A stretch of 64,000 bases of DNA. Origin: Piscinibacter gummiphilus. GTDB lineage: Bacteria > Pseudomonadota > Gammaproteobacteria > Burkholderiales > Burkholderiaceae_C. The position numbers and the translations under genes were made by a program. The notes below the pieces were generated by a model. The model was given only the letters and a program-made list of their open reading frames with translations, did no database searches and was not told the DNA's origin. Location of the stretch: assembly GCF_032681285.1 (NCBI RefSeq), contig NZ_CP136336.1:372001-436000 (forward strand), in the 5' to 3' direction. Below are positions 11,255 to 22,621 of this stretch, one piece after another. How positions within the stretch are numbered: the first letter of the stretch is position 1; each line of letters opens with the position of its first letter.

Positions 11255-12292
11255 ATGGGCCTGATGGATTTCATCAAGAAACAGTTCATCGACGTTCTGG
11301 AATGGACGGAGTCCGCCGACGGCGTGCTCGCCTGGCGCTACCCGATGGCTGGCAACGAAATCCAGTACGGCGGCTCGCTCACCGTGCGCGAGTCTCAGAT
11401 GGCCGTCTTCGTGAACGAAGGCAAGGTGGCCGACGTCTTCGGCCCCGGCATGTACAAGCTCACGACGCAGACGCTGCCGGTGCTCACCTACCTCAAGAAT
11501 TGGGACAAGCTCTTCCAGAGCCCGTTCAAGAGCGACGTCTACTTCTTCAGCACCCGCCAGCAGATCGACCAGCGCTGGGGCACCACGCAGCCGGTCACGA
11601 TCCGCGACAAGGACTTCGGCGCCGTGCGCCTGCGTGCCTTCGGCAACTACAGCTACCGCATCGTCGACCCGAAGCTCTTTCACACCGAGATCTCGGGCAC
11701 GCGTGACACCTACACCGTCAACGACCTCGACGGCCAGCTGCGCGGGCTGATGCTGCAGCACATCTCGGATGCGGTGGCCTCGAGCGGCGTGGCCTTCCTC
11801 GACCTCGCGGCCAACCAGATCGAATTCGCCAAGGCGCTGCAGGAAGCGACCGCCCCGTCGTTCGCGGCGCTGGGCCTGAAGCTCGAAGGCGTGACGATGC
11901 AAAGTGTCTCGCTGCCCGAAGAGCTGCAGAAGATCCTCGACCAGAAGATCGGCATGGGCATGGTCGGCAACGACATGGGCAAGTTCATGCAGTACCAGAC
12001 GGCGCAATCGATCCCGAAGTTCGCCGAAGGCGCGGGCTCCGGCGGCGGTGGCGTGGCGGGCGATGCGATGGGCCTTGGTGCCGGCGTCGCGCTCGGCCAG
12101 GTGCTCGCGGGGCAGCTGGCCAGCGGCCTGCAAGGTGGCGGGCAGCAGGCAGCGGCCGCTGCCGCAGCGGCCATCCGCCCCGACGAGGTGATGGCCACGA
12201 TCGAGAAGCTGGCCGACCTCAAGGGCAAGGGCATCCTCACGCAGGAAGAGTTCGACGCCAAGAAAGCGGAACTGCTGAAGAAGCTGGTCTGA
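11255..12292 (+). CDS. SPFH/Band 7-like protein with C-terminal SHOCT domain
   Basis: 345 residues from the ATG at 11255, with GGGAGA upstream; upstream codons in the same frame overlap the terminator. The N-terminal two thirds is a Band 7/SPFH fold of the virion-core-protein-like (YdjI) type: MGLMDFIKKQFIDVLEWTES, then FVNEGKVADVFGPGMYKLTT. A Gly/Ala-rich linker follows (about residues 265-305). The C-terminus is a SHOCT segment (IEKLADLKGKGILTQEEFDA). There is no signal peptide, so it probably assembles on the inner face of the membrane. It is the first gene of a five-gene operon whose later members are DUF4178, DUF350, aminopropyltransferase and amine-oxidase proteins. Its exact role is unknown; scaffolding of a membrane microdomain is an inference. 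Confidence 0.88.
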   Translation: MGLMDFIKKQFIDVLEWTESADGVLAWRYPMAGNEIQYGGSLTVRESQMAVFVNEGKVADVFGPGMYKLTTQTLPVLTYLKNWDKLFQSPFKSDVYFFSTRQQIDQRWGTTQPVTIRDKDFGAVRLRAFGNYSYRIVDPKLFHTEISGTRDTYTVNDLDGQLRGLMLQHISDAVASSGVAFLDLAANQIEFAKALQEATAPSFAALGLKLEGVTMQSVSLPEELQKILDQKIGMGMVGNDMGKFMQYQTAQSIPKFAEGAGSGGGGVAGDAMGLGAGVALGQVLAGQLASGLQGGGQQAAAAAAAAIRPDEVMATIEKLADLKGKGILTQEEFDAKKAELLKKLV

Positions 12293-12314
12293 CCGACCCG
12301 CGCCTGCACCGCTC

Positions 12315-13895
12315 TTGGCAACAGAACCCAGCCCACAGCGCGCCTACCGCGCCGCGTGCCCCAACTGCGGCGCGCCGGTCGACTTCCGCTCGGCCGCGTC
12401 GGCCTTCGCCGTCTGCAGCTTCTGCCGCAGCACCCTCGTCCGCGAGGGCGAGGCTTTGCGCAAGATCGGCGAAAGCGCCGAACTCTTCGATGACCACTCA
12501 CCGCTGCAGTTAGGCGCGGGTGGCAAGTACCAGGGCAGCGGCTTCACGCTCGTGGGCCGCCTGCAGTACCGCTACAAGGACGGCACCTGGAACGAGTGGC
12601 ATGCGCTCTTCGACAACGGCCGCAGTGGCTGGCTGAGCGAAGACAACGGCCGCTACGTCATCGCATTCGATGCGGAGCTGGGTGGCGGCGCCCCGCCGGC
12701 CGAACAGCTGCGCCCCGGTGCGCAGCAGGTCGTTTCGGGCCAGCCGTGGACGGTCGCTTCCGTCACGGCCGCCAAGCTGATCGCCGCGCAAGGCGAACTG
12801 CCCTTCAAGCCGAACACCGAACGTGGCTTCGTGGTCGCCGACCTGCGCAGCACGCGCGACGAGGTCGGCACGCTCGACTACAGCGACGCGGGCGCGCCCA
12901 AGTGGTCGATCGGCCGCTCGGTCGCGATCAGCGAACTCGCGATGACCGGCCTCGCCGAAGGCGCGGAGAAAACACTCAAGGCCCGCAGCATCGAGTGCCC
13001 GAGCTGCGGCACCTCGCTCGAAATCAAGCTCTCGACCACGCAGTCGATCGTCTGCCACCAGTGCCATGCGGTCGTCGACCTCACCTCGGCCGACGGTGCG
13101 GGCAAAGGTGTCGGTGGCGACCTCGCCCACTACGCACAGGACAACGGCGACGAGCCGCAGATCCCGCTCGGCCGGATGGGCACGCTCAAGCTCGGCAAGA
13201 CAGCCCGTGCGTGGCAGGTGGTCGGCTACGTCGAGCGTTGCGAAGAAGGCGAAGACGAGCAAAGCTTCTGGCGCGAGTACCTGCTCTATCACCGCGAGGA
13301 GGGTTTCGCCTTCCTCGTCGACGCCGAAGACGGCTGGAGCTGGTCGGCCCCGATCACCGGCGTGCCCGCCCCTTCGGGCCAGGGCGTGCGCTACCAGGGC
13401 GCGCAGTACCGCGAGATGTACCGCTACACCGGCCGGATCACCTATGTGCTGGGCGAGTTCTACTGGCAGCTCAAGCGCGGCGAGCGCACGAGCAACGTCG
13501 ATTACCAGGGCCCGGGCGGCAAGCGCCTCAACCTCGAGGTGACCGAAGGCGAGCAGGTCTGGTCGGCCGGCGAGACACTGAATGCGGCCGACGTGGCCAA
13601 GGCCTTCCGCCTGGCGCCCGAGACGAGCGCCGCGCTCAAGCGCGATGCCGGCCCGACCTCGGGCAACGCGGCCAGCCTGCTGGCGAAGATCTTCTTCTGG
13701 GTGTTCGTCGTGGTGGTGCTCTTGATGATGTTCCGCTGCAGCGACGACGACCGGCGCGACTGCGAGCCGCTGCGCGCCAGCTACGGCGAAGCCTCGCAGG
13801 AATACCAGAGCTGCCTGGCCAGCAACCGCAGCAGCGGTTACCGCACGAGCGGTGGGTCGTGGGGTGGTTTCTCCAGCGGCGGGGGCCACAAGTGA
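12315..13895 (+). CDS. DUF4178 protein with two zinc ribbons and a C-terminal membrane helix
   Basis: 526 residues if the TTG at 12315 is the start; no ATG fits before the first zinc ribbon. Two CxxC zinc ribbons are present: CPNCGAPV with CSFC near residues 15-40, and CPSCGTSLEIK with CHQCHAVVDL near residues 230-260. Each precedes a DUF4178 beta domain (GKYQGSGFTLVGRLQY, and LKLGKTARAWQVVGYVERC). A membrane helix lies near residue 460 (IFFWVFVVVVLLMMF), followed by a Cys-containing acidic stretch and a Gly/Ser-rich tail. DUF4178 proteins include YjfK of E. coli, which sits with a PspA homologue and YjfL. The function is unknown; a role in envelope stress is suggested by context. Confidence 0.85.
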   Translation: MATEPSPQRAYRAACPNCGAPVDFRSAASAFAVCSFCRSTLVREGEALRKIGESAELFDDHSPLQLGAGGKYQGSGFTLVGRLQYRYKDGTWNEWHALFDNGRSGWLSEDNGRYVIAFDAELGGGAPPAEQLRPGAQQVVSGQPWTVASVTAAKLIAAQGELPFKPNTERGFVVADLRSTRDEVGTLDYSDAGAPKWSIGRSVAISELAMTGLAEGAEKTLKARSIECPSCGTSLEIKLSTTQSIVCHQCHAVVDLTSADGAGKGVGGDLAHYAQDNGDEPQIPLGRMGTLKLGKTARAWQVVGYVERCEEGEDEQSFWREYLLYHREEGFAFLVDAEDGWSWSAPITGVPAPSGQGVRYQGAQYREMYRYTGRITYVLGEFYWQLKRGERTSNVDYQGPGGKRLNLEVTEGEQVWSAGETLNAADVAKAFRLAPETSAALKRDAGPTSGNAASLLAKIFFWVFVVVVLLMMFRCSDDDRRDCEPLRASYGEASQEYQSCLASNRSSGYRTSGGSWGGFSSGGGHK

Positions 13896-13935
13896 CGTCA
13901 CCGCATCTGCTTCTCAATTTCTCAAGGAGAGTCCC

Positions 13936-14157
13936 ATGATGGGTATCGAATGGTTGAAGCCCAGCGTCTTCTTCGGGTCCATCCTGTACGCGCTGGTCGG
14001 CGTGTTCGTGTTCTGGATCAGCTTCGTCATCGTCGACAAGCTCACCCCGTATGACCTGTGGGGCGAGATCGTCGAGAAGAAGAACGTGGCGTTGGCGATC
14101 GTGGTGGGTGCGATGTGCATCGCCATCGGCCTGATCGTCGCGGCGGCCATCCACTAG
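13936..14157 (+). CDS. DUF350 small membrane protein
   Basis: 73 residues from the ATG at 13936, with AAGGAGA upstream. Two membrane helices are visible (SILYALVGVFVFWISFVIV and VALAIVVGAMCIAIGLIVAA), joined by a charged loop DKLTPYDLWGEIVEKKN. This is one DUF350 unit; E. coli YjfL and many homologues have two. It sits in the middle of the SPFH-polyamine operon, with the next gene 4 bases away, so the two are probably translated together. A channel or partner role for the aminopropyltransferase is possible but not shown. Confidence 0.88.
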   Translation: MMGIEWLKPSVFFGSILYALVGVFVFWISFVIVDKLTPYDLWGEIVEKKNVALAIVVGAMCIAIGLIVAAAIH

Positions 14158-14161
14158 TGCG

Positions 14162-15709
14162 TTGAACACCACCGAGCCGGCCGCGCGCATCCGCCCGGCC
14201 GAAGTGGCGCTGCTGGCGTCGGTCTTCGTCGTCGCCGCGTGCGGGCTGGTCTACGAACTCGCGGCGGGGGCGCTCGCGAGTTACCTGCTGGGCGACTCCG
14301 TCCTCCAGTTCTCCACCATCATCGGCAGCTACCTCTTTGCGATGGGCATCGGCTCGTGGCTGTCGCGCTATTTCGAGCGCCAGCTGGTGGCGCACTTCCT
14401 GCGCATCGAGCTGCTGGTGGGGCTGATCGGCGGGCTCATGCCGGCGGCGCTCTTTGCGTTGCAGGCGCTGCCCTCGATGAGCTTCCGCTTCGTGCTGTAC
14501 GGCCTCGTGTTGCTGGTCGGCACGCTGGTGGGGCTGGAGATCCCGCTCGTCATGCGCATCCTGAAGCGCCACTTCAGCGAGCGTTATGCGCTGAAGGACC
14601 TGGTCTCGCAGGTGCTGACCTTTGACTACCTCGGCGCGCTCGCCGTGGCGGTCGCTTTTCCGCTGCTGCTCGTGCCGCACCTCGGCCTCGTGCGCACCGG
14701 CGCCTTCTTCGGCCTGCTCAACGCCGCGGTCGCGGTGTGGGCGCTGTGGCTCTTTCGCGGTGAGCTGCGGCAGCTCGGGTCGCACGTGATCGCCTGCGTG
14801 GGCGTGGTGGCGGCGCTGCTGGGCGCGATGGCCTACGCCGACCGCATCAGCACCTGGGCCGAAGACCGCTTCTACGCCGACCGCATCGTCTACAGCGAGA
14901 CCAGCCGCTACCAGCGTGTGGTCGTCACCTCGGGGCGCGCCGGGGTGCGCCTCTTCCTCAACGGCAACTTGCAGTTCCACTCGCGCGACGAGTACCGCTA
15001 CCACGAGGCCCTGGTGCACCCGGCGATGGCCGCGCACGGTGCGCCCAAGCGTGTGCTGGTGCTGGGCGGTGGCGACGGCATGGCGGTGCGCGAGGTGCTC
15101 AAGCACCCGAGCGTCGAATCGGTGACGCTGGTCGAACTCGACCCGCACATGACGAAGCTCTTCGCCGAGCAACCGATGCTGCGCGAGCTCAACGGCGATG
15201 CGCTGCGTTCGCCCAAGCTCACGATCGTCAACGCCGATGCCTTTGCCTGGCTCGAGCAAAACCCCGGCAGCTTCGACGTGATCGTGGTCGACTTCCCCGA
15301 CCCCACCAATTTCTCGCTCGGCAAGCTCTACACCACGAGCTTCTATGCGCTGCTCGACGCGCATCTCTCGGCCTCGGGTTATGCGGTGGTGCAAACCACC
15401 TCGCCGCTCATCGCACGCAAGAGCTACTGGACAGTGGCCGCCACGCTCGAAGCGGCGGGCCTCACCACCACGCCGTACCACGCGCATGTGCCGAGCTTCG
15501 GTGAGTGGGGCTTCATCCTGGCCAGCCGCCGCCCCTTCCGCCTGCCCACCGCGCTGCCGAGCGGCCTGCGCTTCCTCACCGTCGACGGCCTGCCGGGCTT
15601 GCTGCAGTTCCCGCCCGACATGGCGCGTGTGCCGGCCGAGCCGAACCGCCTGTCGAACCAGGTGCTGGTGCAGACCTTCGAGCAGGAATGGGGCAAGGTG
15701 CACCCGTGA
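14162..15709 (+). CDS. Membrane-embedded spermidine-synthase-like aminopropyltransferase
   Basis: 515 residues from a TTG at 14162. The first ~225 residues hold about seven membrane helices (from VALLASVFVVAACGLVYELA). From about residue 245 a soluble domain of the spermidine synthase fold follows. The nucleotide site is VLVLGGGDGMAVREVL followed by VTLVELDPHMT. The catalytic loop reads VVDFPDPTNFSLGKLYTTSF in place of the classical D-S-T-D-P. The soluble family transfers aminopropyl from decarboxylated AdoMet to putrescine. The membrane-fused form is often found with DUF350 and DUF4178 genes; its amine acceptor has not been fixed by sequence. It overlaps the downstream FAD gene (GTGA), so the products are probably made together. 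Confidence 0.88.
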   Translation: MNTTEPAARIRPAEVALLASVFVVAACGLVYELAAGALASYLLGDSVLQFSTIIGSYLFAMGIGSWLSRYFERQLVAHFLRIELLVGLIGGLMPAALFALQALPSMSFRFVLYGLVLLVGTLVGLEIPLVMRILKRHFSERYALKDLVSQVLTFDYLGALAVAVAFPLLLVPHLGLVRTGAFFGLLNAAVAVWALWLFRGELRQLGSHVIACVGVVAALLGAMAYADRISTWAEDRFYADRIVYSETSRYQRVVVTSGRAGVRLFLNGNLQFHSRDEYRYHEALVHPAMAAHGAPKRVLVLGGGDGMAVREVLKHPSVESVTLVELDPHMTKLFAEQPMLRELNGDALRSPKLTIVNADAFAWLEQNPGSFDVIVVDFPDPTNFSLGKLYTTSFYALLDAHLSASGYAVVQTTSPLIARKSYWTVAATLEAAGLTTTPYHAHVPSFGEWGFILASRRPFRLPTALPSGLRFLTVDGLPGLLQFPPDMARVPAEPNRLSNQVLVQTFEQEWGKVHP

Positions 15710-17307
15710 GCCTGCGTCGGCGCACCTTGCTGTCGGCGGGGGTGGGCTTGCCGCTGGTCGCGGGCTGCTGGCGTGCACCGGAAGTCCGGTACGACGGCGG
15801 CTGGGTCGGCGCGCAGCACGCCCGCGGCCACCGCCTGCGCGACCTGAAGAGCGGCGCGCTGCCCACGCCTGCCGTCACCCGCCGTGCCCAGGTACTCGTC
15901 GTCGGCGCCGGTGTGGCGGGCCTCGCGTGTGCACGGGCGCTGGCGCAGCGCAAGGTCGACGACGTGCAACTCCTCGACCTGGAAGACAGCGCCGGGGGCA
16001 ACAGCCGAGGCCACCGGATCGCCGGCATGGCCTGCCCGCTCGGCGCGCACTACCTGCCGGTGCCTGGCGAGGCCGATGTCGAGGTGGTGGCGCTGCTGGA
16101 AGAGCTCGGCCTGAGCCGCATCGAACACGGCAAGCGTGTCTACGACGAGCGCCACCTCTGTCACAGCCCGCAGGAGCGGCTCTTCATCGGCGGCCAGTGG
16201 CAGGAAGGTTTGCTGCCGGTCCACGATCAACCCGAGGCCACGCTCGCGCAATACCGCCGTTTCGCCGAGGCGGTGACGAAAGCCGCTGCGCTCGGCTTCA
16301 GCCTGCCGACCGCGCACGCCCCGTGGACAGCCGCGCACCAGGCGCTCGATGCGCAGAGCTTCGCGCACTGGCTCGACCAGCATCGTTTCGACGCAGCCGC
16401 CCTGCGCACCTACCTCGACTATTGCTGCCGCGACGACTATGGCGCCGGGGCCGCGCAGGTGTCGGCCTGGGCGGGGCTGCACTACTTCGCCAGCCGGCAT
16501 GGGTTCCACGCGCCGGGTGACGCGGAAGCCGACACCCGCGAGGGCGTGCTCACCTGGCCGCAGGGGAATGGCTGGCTCACCGAGCGCCTGGCTCAGCCGC
16601 ACCGAGAGCGTCTGCATGCGGGTTCGATCGCGCTGCGCGTGGACGAGGGCCGCCATGAAGTGACCGTCGACGTGTGGAACGCGCCCGCCGAGCGCGCCGA
16701 GCGTTGGGTCGCGAGGCAGGTGGTGATGGCCGCGCCGCTCTTCATCGCGCAACGCCTGCTGGCCACAACGCCTTCCGCCCTGCCGGCTGCCGTGGCGCAG
16801 ATGCGCCACGCACCCTGGCTCGTGGCCAACCTGCACATCGACACCCCGCTCGACGACGCCGGTGGCGCCCCGCCCGCCTGGGACAACGTGCTGCACGGCA
16901 GCCCCGCGCTCGGCTACGTGAACGCCATGCACCAGAGCACCCGGCCCCACCCCGGCCCGACGGTGCTCACGAGCTACTGGGCGCTCGGCGGTGACAACCC
17001 GCAGCAGCTGCACGCCAACCGCGCCCGTCTGCTTTCCGACGGCTGGGAGGCCTGGTCGCGCGTGGTGCTGGACGACCTGGCGAAAGCCCACCCCGACCTG
17101 CCCGCCAAGGTGAAGCGCATCGACCTCATGCGCTATGGCCATGCGATGAGCATCCCCGTGCCGGGCCTGCGCGGCAGCGCGGCCCTGCAGGCCTTGTCAC
17201 GCCCGGCCGGGCGGGTGCACTTCGCGCACAGCGATCTGTCGGCGTATTCGGTGTTCGAGGAAGCGTTCTTCCACGGCACGCGTGTCGGGAAGCGTCTCGC
17301 TGTCTAA
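15706..17307 (+). CDS. Exported FAD-dependent amine-oxidase-like lipoprotein
   Basis: 533 residues from the GTG at 15706, which overlaps the stop of the aminopropyltransferase gene. The N-terminus MSLRRRTLLSAGVGLPLVAG then Cys combines a twin-arginine motif with a lipobox, so a folded, FAD-loaded enzyme could be exported and lipid-anchored. The FAD-binding motif is VLVVGAGVAGLACARALAQ, followed by an acidic strand end (LLDLED) and GGNSRGHRIAG. The C-terminal part (SDLSAYSVFEEAF) resembles flavin amine oxidases. Operon context suggests a polyamine or related amine as substrate, but this is inference. Its last 4 bases overlap the convergent pepP stop. Confidence 0.82.
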   Translation: MSLRRRTLLSAGVGLPLVAGCWRAPEVRYDGGWVGAQHARGHRLRDLKSGALPTPAVTRRAQVLVVGAGVAGLACARALAQRKVDDVQLLDLEDSAGGNSRGHRIAGMACPLGAHYLPVPGEADVEVVALLEELGLSRIEHGKRVYDERHLCHSPQERLFIGGQWQEGLLPVHDQPEATLAQYRRFAEAVTKAAALGFSLPTAHAPWTAAHQALDAQSFAHWLDQHRFDAAALRTYLDYCCRDDYGAGAAQVSAWAGLHYFASRHGFHAPGDAEADTREGVLTWPQGNGWLTERLAQPHRERLHAGSIALRVDEGRHEVTVDVWNAPAERAERWVARQVVMAAPLFIAQRLLATTPSALPAAVAQMRHAPWLVANLHIDTPLDDAGGAPPAWDNVLHGSPALGYVNAMHQSTRPHPGPTVLTSYWALGGDNPQQLHANRARLLSDGWEAWSRVVLDDLAKAHPDLPAKVKRIDLMRYGHAMSIPVPGLRGSAALQALSRPAGRVHFAHSDLSAYSVFEEAFFHGTRVGKRLAV

Positions 17308-21495: not shown

Positions 21496-22197
21496 TCAGC
21501 CCGCGGACGGGTGGTTGAGGGCGTCGAGCCGCTCCACGGTGCCCACGTCGGTCCAGGGGCCGTCATAGGCGGTGGCGCCGATGCGGCCGGCATCGGCACC
21601 GGCGCGCAGCAGCGGGGTCAGCGGGAGCTTCTCGCCCACGGCCAGGCCGTCCACGATGGCGGCGCGGAAGAGGCCGACGCTGGCCCAGGTGCGCTTCGGC
21701 GTGGCCGTGCGCGAGGCGAGGCCCTGGGCGTCGATGCCGAAATCGCCTCCGGGGTGGTGCGGCGCGTTGGGCACGAGCCAGAGATGGGCGAGGGTAGGGC
21801 CTTCGGCGAAGCGCTGCGCCACGGCTGCGTCGAAGCGGAAGCCGGGGAGGAACACGTCGCCCGAGACGACCCAGAAACAATCCGTCGTGGCATCGGTCAG
21901 CAGCGGTAGCGCCTTGGCGATACCGCCGGCCGTTTCCAGCGCGCCGCCGTGGTCGCGGCCTTCGAGCGAATAACGGATCGACACGCCATACCGCGCGCCA
22001 TCGCCCAGCGTGTCGACGATGCGCTCTTCCAGCCAGGCGGTGTTGATCACGACCTCGCGGATGCCATCGCGTGCCAGCGCCTCCAGGTGCCACACGATCA
22101 AGGGCTTGCCCTGCACTTCGAGCAGGGGCTTGGGCGTGTGGTCGGTGAGTGGGCGCATGCGCTCGCCGCGTCCGGCGGCCAGGATCAAGGCTTTCAT
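21496..22197 (-). CDS. murU: Nucleotidyltransferase, MurU-like (MurNAc-1-phosphate uridylyltransferase)
   Basis: 233 residues from the ATG at 22197, which overlaps the speD stop (ATGA). The signature of sugar-phosphate nucleotidyltransferases is at the N-terminus: [20 protein letters not shown], then PKPLLEVQGKPLI. The metal site Asp is in WVVSGDVFLP, and the C-terminal Asp lies in WTDVGTVERL. MurU makes UDP-MurNAc in the cell-wall recycling bypass of Pseudomonas and many betaproteobacteria. The usual kinase partner AmgK is not in the window, so the assignment rests on the protein alone. Confidence 0.8.
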   Translation of the reverse strand: MKALILAAGRGERMRPLTDHTPKPLLEVQGKPLIVWHLEALARDGIREVVINTAWLEERIVDTLGDGARYGVSIRYSLEGRDHGGALETAGGIAKALPLLTDATTDCFWVVSGDVFLPGFRFDAAVAQRFAEGPTLAHLWLVPNAPHHPGGDFGIDAQGLASRTATPKRTWASVGLFRAAIVDGLAVGEKLPLTPLLRAGADAGRIGATAYDGPWTDVGTVERLDALNHPSAG

Positions 22198-22559
22198 GAG
22201 CTGGCACCTCGTTCGATGGTGTGGTGTTCGACCTGGCGCGGCGCGAATGCGGTCACCAGGCGGTCGAGCAGCGCACGCGCCTTGTGGGAGTTGTCGGCGC
22301 CGAAGTTGCACACGTAGACGTCAAGCGTCACCGCGCCGAGTTCGGGCCAAGTGTGCACGGCGAGGTGCGATTCGGCCAGCAGCACCACGCCCGTCACGCC
22401 GCCCGCGCCGGGGAAGGTGTGGAAGAGCTCGCCCACCGGCTGCAAGGCTGCGCCGGCCACCGCCGCGAGGCACAGGCGCCGCAGCGCGTGCGGGTCGGTG
22501 AACGCGGGAGTCTCCGTGGAGCATCCCCGTAAATCGGCGGTGAGGTGCAGGCCGTGCAT
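22194..22559 (-). CDS. speD: S-adenosylmethionine decarboxylase proenzyme-like (SpeD)
   Basis: 121 residues from the ATG at 22559. The self-processing site is visible as [20 protein letters not shown]: cleavage before Ser makes the pyruvoyl group, and the His is the processing base. The catalytic Cys follows in DVYVCNFG (usually CG). Small class 1b enzymes of this length make decarboxylated AdoMet, the aminopropyl donor for spermidine synthesis. Some SpeD relatives have become arginine or ornithine decarboxylases, so activity needs testing. The nearest aminopropyltransferase is the membrane form at 14162-15709. It is first in an apparent operon with murU and an SDR, and divergent from tkt. 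Confidence 0.85.
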
Positions 22560-22621
22560 CGGGGTCAATTATCGAGCCCCGTAAAATGCCGGGTTTCCCC
22601 CACACCACCCCAAGCGAGCCC

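Follow-up and report, generated by a model that had tools for sequence, protein, structure and literature searches.

A conserved lysine-ended tail as candidate acceptor in a membrane aminopropyltransferase operon of Piscinibacter gummiphilus

Background

The window analysed here is a 64,000-nucleotide stretch of the Piscinibacter gummiphilus genome (contig NZ_CP136336.1, positions 372,001 to 436,000). It contains an operon of five genes, the fourth of which encodes a seven-helix (7TM) membrane protein fused to a spermidine-synthase-like domain. Membrane fusions of spermidine synthase are common and, to our knowledge and in the parts of the literature consulted, have no known acceptor. Which molecule, then, would receive the aminopropyl group? 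The candidate that we put forward, with about equal weight for and against, is a protein: an exported tail would be aminopropylated on its terminal lysine, and a flavoprotein may oxidise it later.

Gene sets of this kind are on record. Ravi 2024 (PMC11237479), in the parts available to us, describes 7TM-spermidine synthase fusions with DUF350, DUF4178, AdoMet decarboxylase, Band-7/SHOCT variants and polyamine oxidase, and proposes polyamine sensing or 'aminopropylation of other substrates'. The PspA/Band-7 polyamine operons described there share with ours the 7TM-spermidine synthase fusion, DUF350, DUF4178 and a lipoprotein. The Band-7/SHOCT variants are likewise accompanied by AdoMet decarboxylase and polyamine oxidase, and have a C-terminal 2TM. 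In Piscinibacter, a Band-7/SHOCT protein and a protein of amine-oxidase fold are present and speD is about 5 kb off. A sequence-only reading of the window had called the operon its best candidate for an undescribed pathway, which is too strong since such gene sets are already in that paper. The operon is of a known kind. In the available main text of the same paper, the words 'lysine' and 'glycine-rich' have 0 occurrences, and neither the lysine tail nor the micro-proteins discussed below are mentioned. In the open literature that we searched, one paper has DUF4178, and none of those listed concerns a lysine tail of these clusters. The tail appears to be a new, strongly conserved part of a known kind of operon, and its terminal lysine offers a specific candidate, open to testing, for the acceptor that has been missing.

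Results and discussion

The operon and its genes

All five genes of the sequence-only reading lie on the + strand in a tight operon (Table 1), with spacings of 22, 40 and 4 bases and a final overlap of 4 bases. The same reading took the products to be a Band 7/SHOCT protein, a double zinc-ribbon DUF4178 protein with one helix, a single-unit DUF350 protein, a seven-helix protein fused to spermidine synthase and a Tat/lipobox FAD protein, and it is right on these genes. In gene 2, Pfam matches DUF4178 in two stretches, and the sequence has two CxxC...CxxC zinc-ribbon motifs and one hydrophobic helix. Gene 3 covers about half of the DUF350 model (8-65 of 133). Gene 4 matches Pfam Spermine_synth and NF002956, and gene 5 has Rossmann FAD/NAD(P) matches and, by eye, an RR pair and a lipobox Cys close to the N-terminus. 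The gene 1 product is likely a scaffold. That reading overlooked two features. One is the lysine-ended C-terminal tail of gene 2 and the other is speD, which lies on the opposite strand here and inside the operon in some relatives (L037, L041, L042, and L165). The upstream neighbour of the operon is a PEP-CTERM protein. The downstream neighbour, on the opposite strand, resembles an Xaa-Pro aminopeptidase, judged from its ORF translation.

Table 1. Features of the operon and speD in the window
Feature	Position	Strand	Basis
Gene 1, SPFH/Band 7 protein with C-terminal SHOCT	11255..12292	+	Pfam Band_7_1 256.5 bits, SHOCT 32.7 bits
Gene 2, two zinc ribbons, two DUF4178, one TM helix, predicted exported tail	12315 (TTG)..13895	+	Pfam, sequence
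Gene 2 C-terminal tail, residues 477-526, Gly/Ser-rich, ends GGGHK	13743..13892	+	sequence
Lys526 codon of gene 2	13890-13892	+	sequence
Gene 3, short DUF350 membrane protein	13936..14157	+	Pfam DUF350 54.9 bits
Gene 4, 7TM domain fused to spermidine-synthase-like aminopropyltransferase domain	14162 (TTG)..15709	+	NF002956, model, 1uir
Gene 5, Tat-signal/lipobox flavoprotein, amine-oxidase fold	15706 (GTG)..17307	+	model, 2yg6, Arg5/Arg6/Cys21
speD, S-adenosylmethionine decarboxylase	22194..22568	-	PF02675 92 bits

Co-occurrence of the genes

In a single draw of 120 genomes from the order, full-length gene 4, a strong match to gene 5 (E 1.4e-72 or better) and DUF4178 are each found in 18 genomes, DUF350 in 28 and SpeD in 42. 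Any gene 5 match at 0.001 is found in 39 genomes, the other 21 being weak (4.8e-9 or worse) and mostly to the Rossmann part. The gene 4, strong gene 5 and DUF4178 sets are the identical 18 genomes, all of which also have DUF350 and SpeD. This joint presence is more than chance. Homologues mostly found apart would have argued against a single functional unit; the genes are instead together in 18/18 genomes, which supports such a unit, and genes 4 and 5 are adjacent in 15 of them (apart in G077, G032, and G111). Some of the 18 loci are one-direction operons, SPFH-DUF4178-DUF350-enzyme-flavoprotein, with speD last in some. Others are divergent, with flavoprotein-enzyme against DUF350-SPFH-DUF4178-speD.

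Among named loci, the best-scoring 80 of at least 582 and hence close relatives, genes 5 and 3 are each found in 75, gene 2 in 74, gene 1 in 62 and SpeD in 22. A Novosphingobium plasmid carries SPFH, DUF4178, DUF4178, a 48-residue hypothetical protein, DUF350, the aminopropyltransferase, the FAD protein and speD. Across 249 genomes of the phylum, 29 (sorted by hand) have a match spanning the membrane part, and gene 5 occurs in 8, all within the 29. The flavoprotein is a lineage-specific partner, and the remaining clusters are of the PspA or AdoMetDC type. Note that the genome sets share genera; Delftia and Comamonas, for example, are in both the named and unnamed sets.

At 1e-10, 43 genomes match gene 4. 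Besides the 18, they comprise 24 whose sole match is of canonical SpeE size and G119, where an 860-residue frame gives a weak match. SpeD occurs in precisely the 18 with the membrane enzyme plus the 24 with a canonical-type SpeE match, 42 in all. Such a match is also found in G093 and G105, and 16 of the 18 membrane-enzyme genomes are without one. In these 16, source genome included, the only SpeD partner found is therefore the membrane enzyme, which supports the acceptor reading. In the source genome, the speD of Table 1 is the only SpeD match, and a search for another matched aminopropyltransferase found none. Work by Li et al. of 2019 in Biochem J is said to concern AdoMetDC with an MFS-SpdSyn fusion and DUF350, in which the AdoMetDC is functional, spermidine is absent, the fusions fail to rescue a speE mutant and the acceptor is not putrescine. 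The SpeD of such clusters reportedly serves something other than polyamine synthesis, in agreement with the 16/18 pattern. That system has the same donor-making SpeD, membrane SpdSyn fusion and DUF350. It is not known to have come with a proposed acceptor, whereas a protein tail is proposed here.

The lysine-ended tail

Past its TM helix, the DUF4178 protein has a Gly/Ser tail with a C-terminal lysine (...GGSWGGFSSGGGHK); the end after the helix reads ...SSGYRTSGGSWGGFSSGGGHK. In the named loci, complete gene 2 products end in Lys in 74/74 cases and in His-Lys in 73/74. The last residues of genes 1, 3, 4, 5 and SpeD are more variable, with an entropy of 1.0-3.1 bits. A Lys-ended tail or small protein is found in 75/80 named loci, L099 being an end fragment.

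Where gene 2 lacks such an end, a separate tiny gene provides it. In divergent clusters the micro-protein gene lies between DUF4178 and speD (e.g., L048, 53 residues, ...YSSGGSYSGGGHK), and in other clusters between DUF4178 and DUF350 (e.g., L036, 45 residues, ...RSAYHK). A tail or micro-protein with an -HK end is found in 18/18 order genomes carrying the membrane aminopropyltransferase. In G077 the tail is absent from the main cluster (L046). It was predicted beside speD at the other locus and found there, overlapping the speD start, which supports the acceptor reading. Another 27 genomes of the phylum have a Lys end in 22 (-HK, -IK, -GGK, -SGK, -RGK). For one (L175) the stretch examined does not reach gene 2, and in four (L138, L150, L178, and L182) no Lys tail was found, which counts against the acceptor reading. 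Three of these four are lone or broken clusters or short contigs.

For plasmids a rule was fixed beforehand: a frame had to end in Lys, with 5 or more of its last 12 residues being G, S, Y or H. The sample was 7 loci and then 4 more listed with at least 94% coverage, 12 records being counted at 80%. An in-cluster frame follows the rule in 11/11 loci, Gemmatimonadota included, with near-duplicates among the 11 (two Tritonibacter, two Alteromonas, three Novosphingobium, and two Burkholderia), and 14 of the 1347 frames in the plasmid loci do so. These tails sit where relatives predict or, in Alteromonas, in an unnamed gene preceding DUF350. Lysine ends in the 18/18, 75/80, 22/27 and 11/11 sets support a terminal-lysine acceptor. 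Since most micro-proteins were found via a terminal-Lys search, a free test of the lysine comes only from the named loci, the plasmids and G077. Start codons are uncertain for several micro-proteins (L044, L164, L167, L168, L222, and others that lie inside longer frames), and a homologue search with one micro-protein, a short query, gave a single match.

The tail is fused in some lineages and free in others, and in L139-L141 and L169 it adjoins the enzyme gene or overlaps with it; both facts support the acceptor reading. Of the 8 long forms that end in Lys, 7 are lipoproteins with a lipobox. Among frames of at least 40 residues over 119 sources, 97/15908 have an HK end. Of these, 88 are Gly/Ser-rich: 85 lie at or just past DUF4178, and the remaining 3 are tails of this type too. 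The other 9 are 6 micro-proteins and 3 unrelated frames.

Internal lysine is rare and seems to be avoided in the tails, though arginine is common. Over the last 30 residues minus the final one, gene 2 tails (n=75) have 7 Lys vs 121 Arg, which supports the acceptor reading, and the micro-proteins (n=28, selected for a Lys end) have 6 vs 66. Avoidance is weaker in the long lipoproteins (n=8), with 12 vs 36. At the DNA level, the raw motif GG-x-HK-stop has matches in 49/120 genomes and is not enriched over an equally frequent reversed control, which counts against the acceptor reading. Inspection of 39 of the 67 listed sites gave 4 open frames that end in a Gly/Ser tail, each in an enzyme-bearing genome; 3 further listed sites are already known tails. 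The motif discriminates only once the frame is read.

Contrast with ATP-grasp clusters

Nine stretches of the same draw have DUF350 but no membrane enzyme. In eight of them a YjfC-like ATP-grasp gene is present, together with a Gly/Ser tail protein that carries an RGGFG-like motif and is encoded either immediately ahead of it or one gene away. In the ninth (L155, with SpeE and DUF350) neither an ATP-grasp gene nor a tail was detected. The tails of ATP-grasp clusters, including E. coli YjfM and YgiB, end in Gly (9/10) or Ser (1/10) and never in Lys (0/10), which supports the acceptor reading. YjfC and YgiC are annotated by NCBI as peptide-spermidine ligases. An acid-amine ligase needs a carboxyl end while an aminopropyltransferase needs an amine, so the last residue of the tail would match each enzyme. 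This match is our strongest argument, drawn from sequence, for tail and enzyme belonging together. The E. coli clusters resemble ours in that the modifying enzyme is accompanied by an anchored protein with a Gly/Ser tail (YjfM, YgiB) and, in the yjf cluster, by DUF350 (YjfL). They differ in combining an ATP-grasp acid-amine ligase with a C-terminal Gly, whereas ours combines an aminopropyltransferase with a C-terminal Lys. The two types might together make up a single family of envelope tails capped with polyamine, the last residue being set by the chemistry of each enzyme, a view to which we give less than even odds.

The sequence-only reading had placed both DUF4178 and DUF350 in the E. coli yjf region. 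DUF350 is there (YjfL), but YjfK is annotated as DUF2491, and the analogy was rejected for DUF4178. Overall, the genes, the unit and the enzyme types of that reading stand, the DUF4178 analogy and the word 'undescribed' do not, and the gap that it left at the acceptor now has a candidate.

The contrast also bears on the main rival, a wall anchor like Braun's lipoprotein (Lpp), whose terminal lysine side chain is linked to peptidoglycan by L,D-transpeptidases. The terminal lysine of the tails would be joined to peptidoglycan in this way, with the aminopropyltransferase acting elsewhere. That a terminal lysine can serve otherwise counts against the acceptor reading. Lpp is a known case of a periplasmic C-terminal lysine, and the tails likewise have one on an exported, anchored protein, in the long forms a lipoprotein with a lipobox (7/8); their peptidoglycan link is putative. 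However, a wall anchor leaves it unexplained that a terminal lysine tracks the aminopropyltransferase, that Gly stands in its place in ATP-grasp clusters, whose tail is similar and which also have DUF350, and that in G077 the free tail goes together with speD. We consider this explanation unlikely, if the foremost of the rivals.

The gene 4 enzyme and its sidedness

Gene 4 belongs to the NF002956/PRK03612 membrane spermidine synthase fusions (NCBIfam NF002956 693 bits vs a cut-off of 472). Its AlphaFold2 model (35 sequences; pLDDT 91.4, pTM 0.74) has seven long helices and then the enzyme domain, and its best PDB match is 1uir, a Thermus aminopropyltransferase. Compared with six canonical SpeE, gene 4 keeps the Asp of the donor site (GGGDG) and both Asp of the catalytic loop (DFPDP), and D305, D377 and D380 are invariant among 35 gene 4 sequences. 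Sequence comparison thus supports an aminopropyltransferase domain of SpeE fold, as had been read earlier, and the kept Asp residues support the acceptor reading. The catalytic loop is FPDP in most sequences. The segment following PDP differs from canonical SpeE, and PSFGEWG takes the place of its end loop.

These features also weigh on a second rival, in which a small amine is the acceptor. The enzyme would then produce a polyamine such as spermidine, either at the membrane or across it, and the tail would serve only as a structural partner or sensor. As this explanation would have it, the canonical donor-site and catalytic residues examined are all kept, the NCBIfam family is named polyamine aminopropyltransferase, and SpeD is present in all 18 genomes. 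It is set against the unusual post-PDP segment and PSFGEWG loop and against the findings attributed to Li et al., reportedly a functional AdoMetDC with no spermidine and no speE rescue by such fusions. It ranks after the wall anchor and is also improbable. Least likely, and to us a long shot, is aminopropylation of a lipid or other envelope molecule by the 7TM enzyme, with tail, DUF4178 and SPFH sensing or organising the membrane: the invariant polar residues of the 7TM part (E32, D45, E126, R132, and D155) and the membrane-linked SPFH and PspA partners favour it, but no recurring lipid gene is seen in the clusters (unnamed ORFs read by eye) and the terminal Lys is given no explanation.

The mean K+R of gene 4 sums to 9.3 for the N-terminus and loops 2-3, 4-5 and 6-7, vs 1.6 for loops 1-2, 3-4 and 5-6, with 1.1 after helix 7. 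By the positive-inside rule, this bias places the N-terminus inside and the enzyme domain outside, and it supports the acceptor reading. The enzyme domain is thus predicted to be periplasmic, a prediction that flips if one helix fails to span. The tail is probably outside as well, judging from the lipoprotein forms and, in gene 2, from the cytosolic-type zinc-ribbon domain preceding the single helix. With the enzyme domain outside, the decarboxylated AdoMet donor would have to cross the membrane. We know of no donor supply for a periplasmic aminopropyltransferase, which counts against the acceptor reading.

The gene 5 flavoprotein

The gene 5 model (pLDDT 88.7) has as its best Foldseek PDB match the putrescine oxidase 2yg6 (TM 0.67/0.78, 17% identity). 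The closest structures are putrescine oxidase and MAO (15-22% identity), and the matches also include spermidine dehydrogenase and protoporphyrinogen oxidase (PPOX at ranks 21 and 27). In a PDB profile search amine oxidases come first. These results support the earlier reading of an exported flavoprotein with an amine-oxidase fold, oxidation itself being a prediction. Pfam gives no PF01593 Amino_oxidase match in the window protein, while for many close homologues such a match is precomputed. A hydroxysqualene or protoporphyrinogen enzyme was considered and rejected, with NCBIfam matches far below cut-off and a fold nearer to amine oxidases. The closest homologues are named Rhizobacter sp. Among 32 sequences Arg5 and Arg6 are invariant and Cys21 is kept in at least 90%, which suggests that the flavoprotein is outside. 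MAO and PAO carry a flavin-side Lys. The invariant columns of the 32 sequences include no Lys, and this counts against the acceptor reading.

A possible envelope protein-tagging system

The gene content, co-occurrence, terminal lysine and its tie to enzyme type are established by these surveys. What follows on reaction, sidedness, donor export, oxidation and purpose is our inference. The operon would be a cell-envelope protein-tagging system. SpeD would produce decarboxylated AdoMet in the cytosol, and the donor would cross the membrane, perhaps via the 7TM part or DUF350. The 7TM-aminopropyltransferase would add an aminopropyl group to the C-terminal lysine of the Gly/Ser-rich tail, which a single helix or a lipid would anchor in the membrane. 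The acceptor would be the tail of the DUF4178 protein here and a separate micro-protein or lipoprotein in relatives. Enzyme domain, tail and Tat-exported flavoprotein would all be periplasmic. The flavoprotein may oxidise the added amine, either trimming it or leaving a reactive aldehyde, and the SPFH protein may scaffold the gene set.

Polyamine modifications of lysine exist in hypusine and silaffin. There too aminoalkyl groups are on protein lysine side chains, with other enzymes, on internal lysines, and in eukaryotes or archaea. A closer precedent, which supports the acceptor reading, is the fungal NHMT (PMC10349129), a 7TM enzyme that also has a spermidine-synthase-like domain and that methylates the terminal His of secreted proteins. 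The architecture and the target, a terminal residue of secreted proteins, are the same. NHMT differs in being fungal, in its methyl donor, in acting on an N-terminal His, and in having Ile for the Asp/Glu of GxG(D/E)G.

Conclusions

The terminal lysine is kept across lineages where little else of the tail is, and this makes it a concrete acceptor candidate. If true, the acceptor reading would account for SpeD in bacteria without canonical spermidine synthase and would give DUF4178, DUF350 and the flavoprotein a common task. It would also mean that the bacterial envelope has a protein modification of polyamine type.

Gene arrangement around speD and in related clusters

The only speD (S-adenosylmethionine decarboxylase gene) found in the genome overlaps a nucleotidyltransferase gene and not the five-gene operon. 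In six related loci, the interval separating DUF4178 from speD holds a micro-gene roughly 50-63 codons long. One relative (P0121, Deefgea) is labeled 'hypothetical protein' or 'Lipoprotein' in public databases. Micro-genes between DUF4178 and DUF350, found in three loci, form a separate class with few Gly/Ser and yet with the C-terminal His-Lys.

Micro-genes and the speD region
Feature	Location	Strand
speD	window 22194-22568	-
Nucleotidyltransferase gene (NTP_transferase family; MurU/GlmU-like, judged by eye)	window 21496-22200	-
Micro-gene, DUF4178/speD	L044:12768-12929	
Micro-gene, DUF4178/speD	L047:12998-13189	
Micro-gene, DUF4178/speD	L048:14884-15045	
Micro-gene, DUF4178/speD	L049:14356-14520	
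Micro-gene, DUF4178/speD	L052:13062-13214	
Micro-gene, DUF4178/speD	L053:13483-13650	
Micro-gene, DUF4178/DUF350	L036:10605-10742	
Micro-gene, DUF4178/DUF350	L135:10831-10980	
Micro-gene, DUF4178/DUF350	L165:7527-7673	

In genome G111 (L038-L040), stretches of about 19 kb break the cluster into three, with every part still present. At L154 (G061:C24), remote from the main cluster, a second, short DUF4178 protein directly precedes speD. On Alteromonas plasmids (L170 and L224), one member of the cluster bears the annotation 'toxic anion resistance protein'; another encodes an unnamed 510-residue protein that has the Lys end.

Tails adjoining ATP-grasp ligases

Tail proteins adjoining ATP-grasp spermidine ligases (L156-L163, and E. 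coli YjfM and YgiB at L033 and L171) share an RGGFG-like motif and end in Gly, or once in Ser. They are possible natural substrates of YjfC/YgiC.
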